A stretch of 64,000 nucleotides of DNA from Lysobacterales bacterium (GTDB lineage: Bacteria; Pseudomonadota; Gammaproteobacteria; Xanthomonadales; BPKI01), in the NCBI GenBank assembly GCA_026005055.1, contig BPKI01000001.1, positions 496,001-560,000 on the forward strand, given 5' to 3'. The notes beneath the pieces are model-generated. The model did no database searches and was not told the DNA's origin. It worked only from the letters and a program-made list of their open reading frames with translations. Position 1 is the stretch's first letter. Each line of letters opens with the position of its first letter. Shown piece by piece: positions 32,579-55,648 of this stretch. A program made the position numbers and the translations under genes.

Positions 32579-36117
<3,539 letters not shown>

Positions 36118-50082: not shown

Positions 50083-50700
50083 ATGATGGTCGGCTTGCCT
50101 CTATCCTTTTTGCCGCCGAGAGATGCGATTCGCCTGCGCGAGGGCGAGGTGCATCTTTGGCGCCTCGCGGCCGATACGCCGTGGGAGAGCTGGCTGCCCC
50201 GGCTTTACAACGCTTCGAAGCCGAGCCGCGGGCGCCATGGCAAGCCGCAGGATCCAAGCGGTGCCCTCGCTTGGGCGGTGAGCGACAGCGGTCCTTGGCT
50301 CGCGGTGGCGGTGGCGCGGGGGGGTCCCCTCGGCCTCGATCTCGAGTGCGACAGACCCTTGCGTCAGAGGGCGCGTTTGCTCAAGCGCTGCTTCACGGCC
50401 AGGGAGCAGGCGGCGCTCGGGCCCTGCGGGGACCGGCTCATCCTGCGAGTTTGGACGCTCAAGGAAGCGGTCGTCAAAGCCCATGGCCGCGGCCTGGCCT
50501 ATGGGCTCAAGCGGATCGAGACTCGCCTCGTGGGCGGATGGCCTGTCCTCGATCGCCTCGAGGGCGAGGCCGGCCCCGCCGAGCGCTGGGCGGTCTTCAC
50601 TTTCGAGCTGGCCGAGGGCTGTGATGCGACGCTGCTTACGCCGGTTCCGGCCCCGGTCTTGCGTTGCTTCGCGCCCCTCGGCTGCACGGATCGAGGCTGA
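50083..50700 (+). CDS. 4'-phosphopantetheinyl transferase, Sfp type
   Basis: A 205-residue enzyme that attaches phosphopantetheine to acyl- or peptidyl-carrier proteins. The magnesium-binding motif is GLDLE near residue 86, and the second motif is [15 protein letters not shown] near 130. The length is slightly under the usual Sfp size (about 225). No polyketide, NRPS or fatty-acid gene lies nearby, so the target carrier protein is not shown. The stop overlaps the pdxJ start by one base (TGATG), so it is coupled to pdxJ. Confidence 0.85.
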
Positions 50701-51491
50701 TGACCCGACTCAGCGTCAATGTCAACAAGATCGCGGTGCTGCGCAACAGCCGCGGCGGCCGCTTCCCCGATCCGATCGAAGGCGCGCGGGTCGCCCTCGC
50801 GGCGGGCGCCGATGGCATCACCGTTCATCCTCGCCCGGATCGGCGCCACATCCGCGCCGAGGACGTCCAGCAGATCGCCGAGCTCTTGCGCGCGTGGCCG
50901 GAGGCCGAGCTCAACATCGAGGGCAATCCTTTCGCCCCGCCGCGCCCGGGCTATCCCGGCCTGCTCGCCTTGGTCGAGACGGCAAGGCCGAGGCAGGTGA
51001 CCCTGGTGCCCGATGCCGAGGGGCAGCTCACCTCCGATCATGGCTTCCTCCTGCCGGCGCAGGCCGAGCGCTTGGCCGAAGTCGTGCCCCGCTTCAAGGC
51101 GCTCGGGGCGCGCGTCAGCGTCTTCGTCGATGCCGATCGCTTCGACCGAGAGTCGGCGCGAGCGGCCCGCGCCGCCGGCGTGGATGCGGTGGAGCTCTAC
51201 ACCGGCCCCTATGCCGAGGCCTTCGCCCGCGGCGAAGCCGAGGCGGTGATCGGCCTCTATGTCGAGGCCGCCGCGGCGGCGCTCGGCGAGGGGCTTCGGG
51301 TGCACGCCGGACATGACCTCGATCAAGGCAATCTCGGCCTGCTCCTGGCGCGGATCCCCGCGATCGCCGAGGTCTCGATCGGTCATGCCTTGATCGGCGA
51401 GGCGCTGCTCGGGCCGGGGCTGGCCGAGACCGTGCGCCGCTACCGCGCGATCATCAGGGCGGCGTGCAGTTCGGCCGCTGCCCCGCGCTGA
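50700..51491 (+). CDS. pdxJ: Pyridoxine 5'-phosphate synthase
   Basis: This TIM-barrel enzyme (263 residues) forms the pyridoxine ring from 1-deoxyxylulose 5-phosphate and 3-amino-1-hydroxyacetone phosphate. Family signatures are [44 protein letters not shown] and the C-terminal [11 protein letters not shown] and [10 protein letters not shown]. The ATG overlaps the stop of the upstream transferase. The 3' end overlaps the convergent M48 gene by 38 bases. PdxJ normally sits near acpS in enterobacteria, so pairing with an Sfp-type enzyme is an analogous link. Confidence 0.95.
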
Positions 51492-52257
51492 GCGCCTGCT
51501 GATAGAGCGGCAGGAGCGCTTCGGCGCGGGCGGAAAGTTCGGCCTCGCGCTCGCGCGGGGCGGGATGCGTCGAGAGCCAGGCGGGGGGTCTCGGCCCGCG
51601 CTGCTCGCGGGCGAGTTCGCGCCAGAGCTCGGCGGCTGCTCGCGGATCGAAGCCGGCGCGACTCATCAGCTCCTGACCGTAGCGGTCGGCCTCCTGCTCG
51701 TGCAGGCGCGAGAAGGGCAGCAGTACCCCCACCTGGGCGCCGAGACCGAGCAGGGCGAGGAGCTCGCGCGAGCGCGGATCGCGCCCGCCCTCGCGGGCGA
51801 GGGCGGCGAGTTCGAGGGCGGTGGCGGCGGCGAACTGCTGGCTCACCCGCTCGGCGCCATGGCGGAAGACCACGTGGGCGATCTCGTGCCCGAGCACCGC
51901 GGCGAGGCGATCCTGATCGGGGAAGCGATCGAGCAGCCCACGATAGACGCCGATGCGGCCGCCGGGCAAGGCGAAGGCATTGACTTCGGGCGAGTCGAGG
52001 ATGACGGTCTGCCAGCGCAGGCGCTGCCAGCGCGGAGGGAGCTTCTGGGTGAGCGCCTCGACGACGCAGCCGAGCATCGCCTGGCGGTCGCGGTCCACAA
52101 GTTCCGGATAACGGGCGCGGATCTGCTCGAAGCTCGCCGCCGCCGCGGGCTCGAGCTGTTCGTCGCTGACGATCAAGAGCTGGCGGCGCCCGCTCGGCGC
52201 GACGGCGCAGGCGACGAGGAGGATGAGGAGGAAGGCCAAGAGGAGGCCGCGCTTCAT
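51454..52257 (-). CDS. M48-family metallopeptidase lipoprotein (LoiP/YcaL-like)
   Basis: A 267-residue lipoprotein peptidase. The lipobox LVAC puts the acylated cysteine at residue 17. The zinc motif HEIAH is at 124-128, and the third ligand is in [27 protein letters not shown] and a substrate loop [11 protein letters not shown] complete the M48 pattern seen in LoiP, YcaL and BepA. The ATG overlaps the ATP-grasp gene stop (ATGA), so it is coupled to it. It is probably a periplasmic quality-control protease, perhaps serving the products of this operon. Confidence 0.85.
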
Positions 52258-53207
52258 ACCGTGTGGAAATGCTCGCGGGCGAAGGCGATCCGCGCCTCGG
52301 GCGGGCGCTCCCGGTCGGGCAGCGCCTCGATCGTCTTCAGACGATGCAGCAGACCCGCGCCGTTGGCGATCTGGATCGAGAGCCCCGGGCGGGCATTGAG
52401 CTCGAGCACGAGCGGCCCCTGGTGCTTGTCCAGCACCAAGTCCACGCCCACATAGCCGAGGCCGGTGAGCTCGTAGCAGCGCGCGGCGATGGAAAGCAGC
52501 GTGTCCCAGTGCGGGATGCGCAAGCCCACGATCGAATGCTCGGTGTCGGGATGCTCCTTGATCGGCTCGCTGCCCCATACTCCGCGCTTGGTGATCCCGG
52601 TGGGGATGTCGATGCCCACCCCGATCGCCCCTTGGTGCAGGTTGGCCTTGCCGTCCGAAAGGCGCGTCGGCAAGCGGATCATCGCCATCACCGGATAGCC
52701 GAGAAAGACGATGATGCGGATGTCGGGCACGCCACGGAAGCTCACCCGCTCGAAGAAATCGTCGAACTCGACGCAATACTCGACGAGCAGGTGATCGGGA
52801 TGCCCGCCCAAGCTGAACAAGCCGGAAAGGGCGTTGCTCAGGTGATGCTCGAAGTCCTCCCGGCTCATCAGCAGTCCGCTCGCGCGGCGGTAGCGCTGGC
52901 CGCGGCGGCCATGGATGACGAGGATGCCATCCCCGCCCGAGCCATGCGCCGGCTTGACCACGAACTTCTCGTAGGCGGCGAGCTTGTCATGGAGCTCGCG
53001 GATCTCGTGCTCCTCGCGCACGACGGCGTAGAGCTCGGGGACCGGGATGCCGGCGGCGATGGCCAGTTGCTTGGTGATCAGCTTGTCATCCACCCGCGGA
53101 TAGAACTTGCGCGGGTTGTACTTGAGCACGTAATCGGCGTTGCGGCGGTTGAGCCCGAGCAGGCCGATCCGCTTCAGCCGACTCGCCACCTCGAAGGGGT
53201 TCCACAT
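52254..53207 (-). CDS. Alpha-L-glutamate ligase-like ATP-grasp protein (RimK-related)
   Basis: A 317-residue ATP-grasp enzyme. The nucleotide-binding core includes YEKFVVKPAHGSGGDGILVI, LVEYCVEF and the metal-binding end VLELNARPGLSIQIANG. It belongs to the RimK-related ligase group that is coupled with 7TM inactive-transglutaminase proteins. Such enzymes join an amino acid to a carboxyl group of a peptide or protein. The gene lies 7 bases after the transglutaminase gene and overlaps the M48 gene. The substrate is undetermined. Confidence 0.85.
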   Translation of the reverse strand: MWNPFEVASRLKRIGLLGLNRRNADYVLKYNPRKFYPRVDDKLITKQLAIAAGIPVPELYAVVREEHEIRELHDKLAAYEKFVVKPAHGSGGDGILVIHGRRGQRYRRASGLLMSREDFEHHLSNALSGLFSLGGHPDHLLVEYCVEFDDFFERVSFRGVPDIRIIVFLGYPVMAMIRLPTRLSDGKANLHQGAIGVGIDIPTGITKRGVWGSEPIKEHPDTEHSIVGLRIPHWDTLLSIAARCYELTGLGYVGVDLVLDKHQGPLVLELNARPGLSIQIANGAGLLHRLKTIEALPDRERPPEARIAFAREHFHTV

Positions 53208-53214
53208 GGCCGCT

Positions 53215-54750
53215 TCAGGACTGGGAGGCCTCCGGCCGGGCGAGGGCGCGGAAGCGGAAGAGCTCGGTCAGCCGGTAGCCGGAGTAGCGCCCGATCAGCA
53301 TGGCCAGCGCGAGCACGATCAAGAGCACTTCGGGGAAGACGAACACGAAGTGCACGAGCGGCGGCCAGGTCATCACCAGGTAGGCCACGGCCGCGATCGC
53401 GAGCGACCCGGCGCCTTGGCGGATGGCATGACCTGGGCCGCGTTCCTCCCAGGCGATCGACATGCGCTCGATGGTCATCGCCATGATCACCATCGGAAAG
53501 AGCGCGACCGAAAGGCCGACCTCGATCCCCAGTTTGTGGCTGAGCACGGAGAAGCCGGCCATGAGGATCACGACCACGATGAGCACGCTCGTGAGCCGGG
53601 GCACGAGCAGCAGCTTGAGTCGCTCCATGTAGAAGCGCACGAGCAGCCCCGCCCCGATCAACACGGTGAACATGATCAGACCGGCGAAGAGGCCCGTATC
53701 GCGAAAGGCGATGGCGATCAGGATCGGCATGAAGGTGCCGAAGGTGCTCACCCCCACCACGTTGCGCATGAGCAGCATGATGAAGGCCCCGATCGGGATC
53801 ATCAGCAACACCCGATACACCTGCTGGGTTTCCAGCGGCAGCGCGAAAAGCGAGAACTCGAAGAGCTTGCGGTTTTCGGCCTCGAGGCGCTGTTCGGCGA
53901 GCAGCAAGGCATCGGCGAGATTGCGCTCGATCGCGACCTCCAAGGCCGCACGCGGATGATGCTCGACGGCGAAGGGGACCTCGTGCCCCACTGTCCACAG
54001 CAGGAGATCCTCCGGCCAGCCCTCGGCGGCGGTGTCGAGGTCCACGGTGACCCAGCGCTGTTCGTTGTGCACCTGGAGGAAGGGCCGGATCGTCCGCTGC
54101 GTGCCGGCCTCGAGCTTGAGCCCTTGGACGATGCGCGCCGGGATGTTGCGGAAGGCGAGCAGGCCGGCGAGCAAGCGGGCGCGGGCCAGGGGATCCGGCG
54201 CCAGCTGCTTGAGCAGCGCCACTTCCTGCGAGGGCGGCTGCTCGTTGAAGCGGCGGATGAGCTCGCGCGCGAAGCTCGCGATGTCGGCCGAGCCCTGGCG
54301 GACCTCCTCGAGCAGGGCGTTGGCAGCGGTGAGAAAAGGCTCTTCCAGGCTCGGTTTCTCCGCGAGCTGCGGCCGGCCGTCCTGGTAATCGGCCAAACCG
54401 GCGCGCACCACGGTGGCGCGGTAGTAAAGATGCTGCGGGCCGGAGGCGCGGCGGATGGTCCAGCGGAGGATGCGGCTGCCTTCGTCTTCCTCCGTCAGCA
54501 GCGCATAGCCGGGGGCGATGAAGCGTTCTTCGATAATGGTGAAGCCGGGTGTCAGTTTCGGAATCCGCAGACGCACGCTGTTGGCCTGGCGGCGCGGCTG
54601 GTAGTGGACCCGGGCCTGCACCGTCCACACCTCAGCCTGCTCCTCCGGAGTGAGCGGAAGGCCGAGCACCTGGGCTTTGTAGTAGATCGCTGCCGCTCCG
54701 GTGGCGACGAGCACCGCCGCGAGCAGCAGGAGGTGAAGTTGGCGAAACAT
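53215..54750 (-). CDS. Inactive-transglutaminase fused to 7TM membrane domain
   Basis: A 511-residue inner-membrane protein. One N-terminal helix (about 5-25) is followed by a periplasmic transglutaminase-like domain (about 40-300). In it the catalytic Cys is missing: LLAGLLAFRNIPARIVQGLKLE stands where the cysteine helix should be. About seven helices (from residue 310) follow, with LPLETQQVYRVLLMIPIGAF and a VVGVSTFGTFMPILIA loop. This fusion is known to pair with the downstream RimK-like ligase. The retropepsin-like zinc protease often found with them is not in this locus. Confidence 0.85.
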   Translation of the reverse strand: MFRQLHLLLLAAVLVATGAAAIYYKAQVLGLPLTPEEQAEVWTVQARVHYQPRRQANSVRLRIPKLTPGFTIIEERFIAPGYALLTEEDEGSRILRWTIRRASGPQHLYYRATVVRAGLADYQDGRPQLAEKPSLEEPFLTAANALLEEVRQGSADIASFARELIRRFNEQPPSQEVALLKQLAPDPLARARLLAGLLAFRNIPARIVQGLKLEAGTQRTIRPFLQVHNEQRWVTVDLDTAAEGWPEDLLLWTVGHEVPFAVEHHPRAALEVAIERNLADALLLAEQRLEAENRKLFEFSLFALPLETQQVYRVLLMIPIGAFIMLLMRNVVGVSTFGTFMPILIAIAFRDTGLFAGLIMFTVLIGAGLLVRFYMERLKLLLVPRLTSVLIVVVILMAGFSVLSHKLGIEVGLSVALFPMVIMAMTIERMSIAWEERGPGHAIRQGAGSLAIAAVAYLVMTWPPLVHFVFVFPEVLLIVLALAMLIGRYSGYRLTELFRFRALARPEASQS

Positions 54751-54799
54751 CAGACCCCTGGACCGAGCAGGTCGCGGAAAAGCAAGTATAGCCGCGGGT

Positions 54800-55648
54800 T
54801 TATCGAGCGGCCCGCATCAGCCCGCCATCGAGCAACCGCACCTCCCGCTGCGGGAAGGGGATGGCGATCCCCGAGCGGTCCAGCGTCTCCTTGACCAGGA
54901 TGGCGAGTTCGCTGCGCAGCGCGATGAACTCGCTGGTCGGCACCCACACGCGCAGGGTGAGGTTGATCGAGCTGTCGGCGAACTGCTCGATCAGGACATC
55001 GGGCGGCGGATCGCTCAGGAAACGGCCATCGGCGCGCACCGCTTCGATCAGCACGCGCTGCACCTCGCGCAGATCCGAACCGTAGGCGATGCCCACCGGG
55101 AGATCGATGCGGCGCCGCTCGCGGGCGGTGAAGTTGGTGATGTCGGCGTTGGCCACGTTGCGGTTGGGAACCGCGATCAACCGGTTATCCGGCGTGCGCA
55201 GCCGGGTATGGAAGATGTCCACGGCTTCGACCACGCCGGTGATCCCGCCGGCGGAGACGAAATCGCCCACGCGGAAGGGCCTCAGGGTGACGAGCATCAC
55301 CGCGCCGGCGACGTTGGCCAACGAGTCGCGAAGCGCCAGCCCCACCGCCAAGCCGGCGGCGGCGAGCACGGTGAGCAGGGAGGCGATGGGCACCCCGAGC
55401 AGATCAAGCGCGGGAATGAGCGCGATCGCAGGCAACAGCAAGCGCAGGCCATTGCGCATCAACACCGCGAGCATCGGATCGAGACCGGTGCGCTCGCCGA
55501 ATCGCTGGAAAACCTGAGCGGCCCAGCGGGCGATGCGAAAGCCGAGCCAGATCAGGAACAGGGCGATCAGCAGGCGCAGAGCGAGAGAGACGACCAAGGC
55601 GACACGAGGATCCTCGAGCCATCCGGCGAAGCTTTTGGGATCGAGCAT
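54800..55648 (-). CDS. mscS: Small-conductance mechanosensitive channel, MscS family
   Basis: A 282-residue channel. Three N-terminal membrane helices (about 18-40, 65-90, 95-125) end in the glycine/alanine-rich pore helix LLTVLAAAGLAVGLALRDSLANVAGAV. The beta domain has FRVGDFVSAGGITGVVEAVDIFHTRLRTPDN, and the C-terminal alpha/beta vestibule follows. Length matches E. coli MscS (286). It lies 49 bases upstream of the transglutaminase gene on the same strand and may be cotranscribed with it. Confidence 0.92.
   Translation of the reverse strand: MLDPKSFAGWLEDPRVALVVSLALRLLIALFLIWLGFRIARWAAQVFQRFGERTGLDPMLAVLMRNGLRLLLPAIALIPALDLLGVPIASLLTVLAAAGLAVGLALRDSLANVAGAVMLVTLRPFRVGDFVSAGGITGVVEAVDIFHTRLRTPDNRLIAVPNRNVANADITNFTARERRRIDLPVGIAYGSDLREVQRVLIEAVRADGRFLSDPPPDVLIEQFADSSINLTLRVWVPTSEFIALRSELAILVKETLDRSGIAIPFPQREVRLLDGGLMRAAR

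Follow-up and report, generated by a model that had tools for sequence, protein, structure and literature searches.

An RloB-RloC pair without the RloA retropepsin in Lysobacterales, beside an M48 lipoprotein gene in a shared genomic slot

Introduction

Can the membrane protein RloB and the ligase RloC operate without the secreted protease RloA, and has a neighbouring peptidase taken over the role of RloA where it is missing? This question is raised by a 64,000-nt stretch of Lysobacterales bacterium GCA_026005055.1 (contig BPKI01000001.1, positions 496,001-560,000; hereafter the window), in which genes for an MscS-type mechanosensitive channel, RloB, RloC and an M48 zinc metalloprotease follow one another 5′ to 3′ on the minus strand. 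The rlo operon (RloA-RloB-RloC) was described in 2025 in Pseudomonas aeruginosa, where, according to the main text of the report, it acts in hypo-osmotic tolerance and RloA is a secreted retropepsin-like protease that cleaves polyglutamate (PMC12239564). The same text states that an rloA1-3 triple mutant does not grow in low-salt medium or without salt, and that deletion of rloB or rloC restores its low-salt growth (PMC12239564).

The window shares with P. aeruginosa the RloB and RloC families and the order rloB-rloC, but it has no RloA at the locus or elsewhere in the genome, and an M48 lipoprotein gene follows and an MscS gene precedes the pair. We consider it likely that RloB-RloC runs without RloA here, flanked by a syntenic M48 lipoprotein gene and, in this genome only, by MscS. 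No published description of an RloA-less rloBC was found in the literature searched, which was mainly open access, and neither "xanthomon" nor "M48" occurs in the main text of the rlo report, supplements such as Fig. S2 aside (PMC12239564). The novelty left lies in the many rloBC systems that naturally lack RloA.

RloA is missing from the window genome and from its lineage

The window genome (2.44 Mb, single contig, completeness 99.96) contains one PF05618 gene. This gene encodes RimB, a protein of 148 residues that starts MSDREAP and lacks a signal peptide, and it adjoins RimK at about 1059792-1061038 of the contig. A profile built from 8 linked RloA proteins found only the same RimB gene. 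RimB-RimK is the cytoplasmic analogue of the rlo system (PMC11957791). RloC is, like RimK of the ribosomal S6 polyglutamylation system, a RimK-related ATP-grasp ligase, whereas RimB-RimK has no membrane partner, and RimB, without a signal peptide, adjoins RimK and not rloBC. Other retropepsins were also considered as hidden substitutes for RloA and dropped: TIGR02281 and PF13650, the only further families searched, gave no match in the genome, the RloA profile revealed no other candidate, and no retropepsin-like open reading frame (ORF) was seen adjoining the four-gene set. RloA, defined as a secreted retropepsin with PF05618 and a signal peptide, is missing from the window genome. An earlier sequence-only reading of this DNA had noted the absence of the companion protease, which is borne out both at the locus and genome-wide; it had also named a retropepsin-like gene elsewhere as evidence against itself, and such a gene does formally exist in RimB, but it is not RloA.

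To place this absence in context, we used a class-wide sample of 274 genomes, in which PF14402 occurred in 55 (56 loci) and 47 loci were canonical at E <= 5.3e-94. RloA lies directly upstream of rloB in 44 of these 47, as expected of the usual companion named in the earlier reading, so that its absence here is unusual; the only canonical loci without upstream RloA are those of the window genome, G225 and G179. Other members of the class carry divergent RloB-like seven-transmembrane (7TM) proteins with weaker PF14402 matches (L187-L192), most of which have no RloA linked to them.

Closer relatives show the same absence on a broader scale. RloC occurs in 28 of 61 related genomes, with a linked RloA in 8 and none in 20; among these 20, PF05618 is represented by one gene in 19 and by none in G044. 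Besides that of the window genome, 18 such genes were fetched, each of which either scores as RimB or neighbours RimK, the latter being adjacent in 16; L152 and L153 carry a RimB-like gene with no RimK within the 4.5 kb fetched. The Lysobacterales set comprised 59 loci, of which 58 were parsed (L074 was not parsed by the ORF script, though its rloC is intact), and RloA was found within the fetched flank of none of the 58. The label follows record names, with loci titled only Gammaproteobacteria or Proteobacteria placed by identity or tree; contigs end near the locus in L035, L045, L058, L174, L176, L222 and L229. Some of these loci duplicate contigs of the relatives' set (e.g., L066 and L043), and the two sets were not summed. 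Across 28 Lysobacterales genomes, PF05618 is present as one gene in 27 and as two in Alkalisalibacterium, and every one of the 18 single genes fetched scores as RimB and shares its locus with RimK. Own-genome PF05618 searches covered 44 of 80 loci, leaving out the genome of L102, and typed 30 of 45 matches; the 15 untyped include that of G337, whose coordinates equal those of the G002 match, typed as L139.

Phylogenetic analysis of RloB joined to RloC (80 rows) placed all Lysobacterales rows in one clade of 29 with a Shimodaira-Hasegawa-like approximate likelihood ratio test support of 100, and none of the 29 has a linked RloA. Absence of linked RloA requires at least four changes over the whole tree on well-supported branches, and families f5, f7, f9 and f10, which are placed in the same taxonomic order as the window genome, include members with linked RloA. 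Absence of linked RloA is a lineage trait of the Lysobacterales rloBC clade.

A further set of rloBC loci, here called Woeseiales-type after the Woeseiaceae names that occur in it, has neither RloA nor M48; its rloBC is presumably flanked by FAD monooxygenase-like genes on one side and by a glycine-cleavage operon on the other. Twelve of its genomes were searched: in eight a RimB was typed that shares its locus with RimK, three contain no PF05618, and one (G360) contains two untyped PF05618 fragments. Gammaproteobacterial-type rlo loci were also seen in metagenome-assembled genomes (MAGs) named Rhizobium sp. (L081) and Candidatus Dadabacteria (L122), which are probably mislabelled or contaminated bins.

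RloB and RloC are conserved in the absence of RloA

Family models assign the window pair to RloB and RloC of the rlo system, the known pairing to which the ligase and 7TM transglutaminase named in the earlier reading belong (PMC12239564). RloC scores 472.8 bits, above the TIGR02291 cut-off of 314.2, and RloB carries both PF14400 (Transglut_i_TM) and PF14402 (7TM_transglut); against the narrower RloB model NF052267 it scores 447.7 bits, under the cut-off of 900. In an AlphaFold2 model of RloB (predicted local distance difference test score 81), a fold search matched residues 37-279 to the transglutaminase-like protein 3isr (Z 14.6, 222 aligned residues, root-mean-square deviation 3.8), while the 7TM part returned only Z <=6.0, to AcrB-type and receptor helices, matches too weak to be informative. 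Where the nucleophile would be expected, cysteine is not among the commonest residues in the 80 rows.

Residues K85, D256, E269 and N271 of RloC, which we take to be the ATP-grasp catalytic residues, are near-invariant across the 80 rows, alike in RloA-less and RloA-linked sequences. No RloC column and a single RloB column (position 201) separate the two groups, and a sequence signature of RloA-less systems was dropped as a candidate. The near-invariance of the ATP-grasp residues, together with the lack of a separating RloC column, suggests that the ligase step in the RloA-less lineage is probably unchanged.

The M48 lipoprotein occupies a slot independently of rloBC

The M48 domain of the window protein retains the HEXXH motif (HEIAH at residue 124), the downstream Glu (EQEAD at 187) and the HP plug motif (THP at 230), and its N-terminus carries a lipobox, LVAC, as judged by eye. 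The proteases YcaL, LoiP and BepA are described as serving outer-membrane protein quality control, and an HP plug is described in the same source (PMC7950410). The window protein shares with these Escherichia coli proteins the M48 domain, HEXXH and the HP motif, and with YcaL and LoiP the lipobox; it differs in lacking a TPR domain, in its genomic neighbours, and in scoring under the cut-offs of the LoiP model NF052399 (63.6 versus 365) and the BepA model NF052400 (100.9 versus 570).

In relatives, the conserved block reads gyrB-rloB-rloC-[M48]-TPR-tonB-exbB-exbD-exbD and ends at a convergent pdxJ. In the window, gyrB lies away from rloBC at 33697-36117, TPR-tonB-exbBD is absent from the M48 flank, and pdxJ comes directly after M48. 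Of the 58 parsed Lysobacterales loci, 57 are informative (L116 ends inside rloC); M48 follows rloBC in 14 of them, from several genera that include Pseudofulvimonas and Rehaibacterium, and is absent from 43, in each of which the sequence extends 1.2 kb or more beyond rloC. Linkage is not confined to this genome; had it been so confined, this would have spoken against the earlier reading. M48 presence requires at least eight changes among the 29 clade rows, and in all eight genomes of family f2, which lack RloC, the same M48 is flanked by gyrB and the TPR gene. At E <= 1e-50, the M48 group occurs in 7 of the 28 relatives with RloC versus 16 of the 33 without (61 genomes in all). M48 and rloBC are independent tenants of one genomic slot, which come and go separately. 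In the two f2 loci inspected, out of eight, an Rce1-like membrane protease (CPBP, PF02517) stands where rloBC would be, between gyrB and M48 (L160:6977-7813 and L161:9045-9893).

The translational coupling reported for the window is exact: the TGA of rloC (52256-52254) and the ATG of the M48 gene (52257-52255) share the tetranucleotide ATGA. It does not hold as a conserved trait, being found in 2 of 17 M48-linked loci, the window and G003/L047, by first-start estimates. A strong M48 neighbour was found in the fetched stretch of none of the 46 other canonical class-wide loci, with one weak 26-bit match in L221. Gene-order comparison across genomes thus upholds RloA absence as lineage-wide, but not the links of rloBC to M48 (14/57) or to MscS (0/58). 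The M48 protein probably serves outer-membrane quality control in the manner of YcaL, LoiP and BepA, as a protease in its own right that is tied to rloC by position only, and annotators should not take an adjacent M48 gene as part of the rlo system.

Alternative explanations

The earlier reading raised the possibility of a variant peptide-tagging system with a swapped peptidase. On this view the M48 lipoprotein, acting in the periplasm, would now do the work of RloA and cleave the RloC/RloB product. The adjacency and ATGA coupling in the window genome and G003/L047 are consistent with this proposal, as is the finding that strong M48 neighbours occur in the Lysobacterales loci and in no other canonical locus, that is, only where RloA is absent. 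However, such a substitute would be expected with every RloA-less rloBC and absent without rloBC, and neither holds: the 43 RloA-less loci just described have no M48, the Woeseiales-type rloBC has neither protease, and the f2 genomes keep the same M48 in the same slot without RloC. The proteases that it resembles are, moreover, described for outer-membrane protein quality control and not for polyglutamate cleavage (PMC7950410). On this distribution we reject M48 as a functional substitute for RloA and regard the swap as very improbable.

E. coli LoiP is named for its induction at low osmolarity, and the four genes could form an emergency operon of this genome, in which MscS, RloBC and a LoiP-like protease are co-expressed against hypo-osmotic shock. 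The spacing is compatible with co-expression (49 bp between MscS and RloB, 7 bp between RloB and RloC, -4 bp between RloC and M48), and a consensus scan, which is weak evidence, found neither a sigma-70-type promoter-like nor a terminator-like site in the MscS-RloB and RloB-RloC junctions; the rlo system itself acts in hypo-osmotic tolerance (PMC12239564, main text). Against it, none of the 58 Lysobacterales loci parsed has MscS beside rloBC, the M48 slot does not depend on rloBC, and the LoiP model score is far below its cut-off, which makes such an operon unlikely. We are more sceptical still that rloBC of this lineage is decaying or has been repurposed after loss of RloA, with rlo chemistry gone. 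The long branches that lead to the RloA-less clade (0.51) and to the window sequence (0.55), together with the absence of RloC from 33 of 61 related genomes, would fit such decay, but the near-invariant ATP-grasp residues, the virtual lack of separating columns (none in RloC, position 201 in RloB) and the retention of rloB together with rloC across many genera argue against it.

Several observations weigh against our preferred reading, in which RloB-RloC runs without RloA beside a merely syntenic M48 gene. Alkalisalibacterium (L114), a member of the RloA-less clade, carries a secreted RloA with a signal peptide away from rloB (L236:1321-1917), and an Algiphilus MAG (L121) likewise has an unlinked secreted RloA with no RloB beside it (L240:1414-1962), so that a locus without RloA does not always mean a genome without it. 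The window M48 sits on a long branch (1.13) and is not firmly placed in its tree; its orthology to the slot M48 therefore rests on context. The ATGA overlap with rloC here and the adjacency kept in 14 loci across several genera leave room for a functional M48-rloC link in those genomes. MscS upstream of a low-osmolarity system may be a meaningful grouping in this genome, and no account of the RloC product was found in the rlo literature.

Proposed function of RloBC without RloA

We propose that RloC ligates an acidic amino acid in the cytoplasm at the expense of ATP, L-glutamate being the likeliest substrate, so that its product would be an acidic peptide, either a short chain or an addition onto a carrier. 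RloB, in the inner membrane, would bind, export or present this product at the envelope through its presumably catalytically dead transglutaminase-like periplasmic domain, and at low osmolarity the product may then change how the wall or envelope behaves. When a putative inactive transglutaminase gene was disrupted in Shewanella vesiculosa, vesicle output rose (PMC12096838). Periplasmic trimming of the product would fall to RloA in most Gammaproteobacteria, whereas in the RloA-less lineage the product may be limited in some other way or need no trimming.

As a tentative extension, which we hold to be somewhat doubtful, in the Lysobacterales and Woeseiales-type lineages RloBC may suffice as a system of two genes, with a product that is stable and useful without a retropepsin; RloA would then be an added regulator and not an indispensable brake. 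If so, these bacteria would show the envelope effect of untrimmed RloBC product. Lineages with RloBC and without RloA represent a natural version of the conditionally lethal genotype of P. aeruginosa, and they offer a simple route to the RloC product; if that product exists, its untrimmed form should accumulate in them.

Gene layout and neighbouring genes

The coordinates and Pfam/NCBIfam matches of the genes confirm the types named in the sequence-only reading, namely an ATP-grasp ligase, a 7TM inactive transglutaminase and an M48 lipoprotein, preceded by MscS (Table 1). The ORF list gives a longer frame, 51454-52776, for the M48 gene, whose start nevertheless lies at 52257. The convergent M48 and pdxJ frames overlap by a 38-bp tail (window 51454-51491).

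Table 1. Genes of the rloBC locus and its convergent neighbour in the window
Feature	Coordinates	Strand	Supporting matches
MscS-type mechanosensitive channel, 282 aa	54800..55648	-	PF00924 E 1.3e-18, PF21082 E 8e-18, PF21088
RloB, 511 aa: N-terminal membrane helix, periplasmic inactive transglutaminase-like domain, C-terminal 7TM bundle	53215..54750	-	PF14402 E 2.8e-98, PF14400 E 9.4e-48
RloC, cytoplasmic RimK-related ATP-grasp ligase, 317 aa	52254..53207	-	TIGR02291 472.8 bits, PF14397 E 1.9e-96
M48 zinc metalloprotease, probable outer-membrane lipoprotein of YcaL/LoiP type, 267 aa	51454..52257	-	PF01435 E 7.7e-37
pdxJ, convergent with M48, marker of the ancestral slot	50664..51491	+	PF03740 E 1.2e-74

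MscS adjacency is private to the window genome, and its inclusion in the set by the earlier reading does not carry over to other loci. An MscS-like gene also adjoins L192, one of the divergent RloB-like 7TM proteins of other class members.

A search for literature on tonB/exbB/exbD2/pdxJ in Xanthomonas found none. The rloBC pair adjoins a TPR-TonB-ExbB-ExbD operon in L043, L046, L051, L054, L049 and L052, and RloBC may be linked to TonB-type energised envelope machinery. The TPR-TonB-ExbB-ExbD arrangement lies downstream on the same strand in families f3 and f4 and on the opposite strand in f7.

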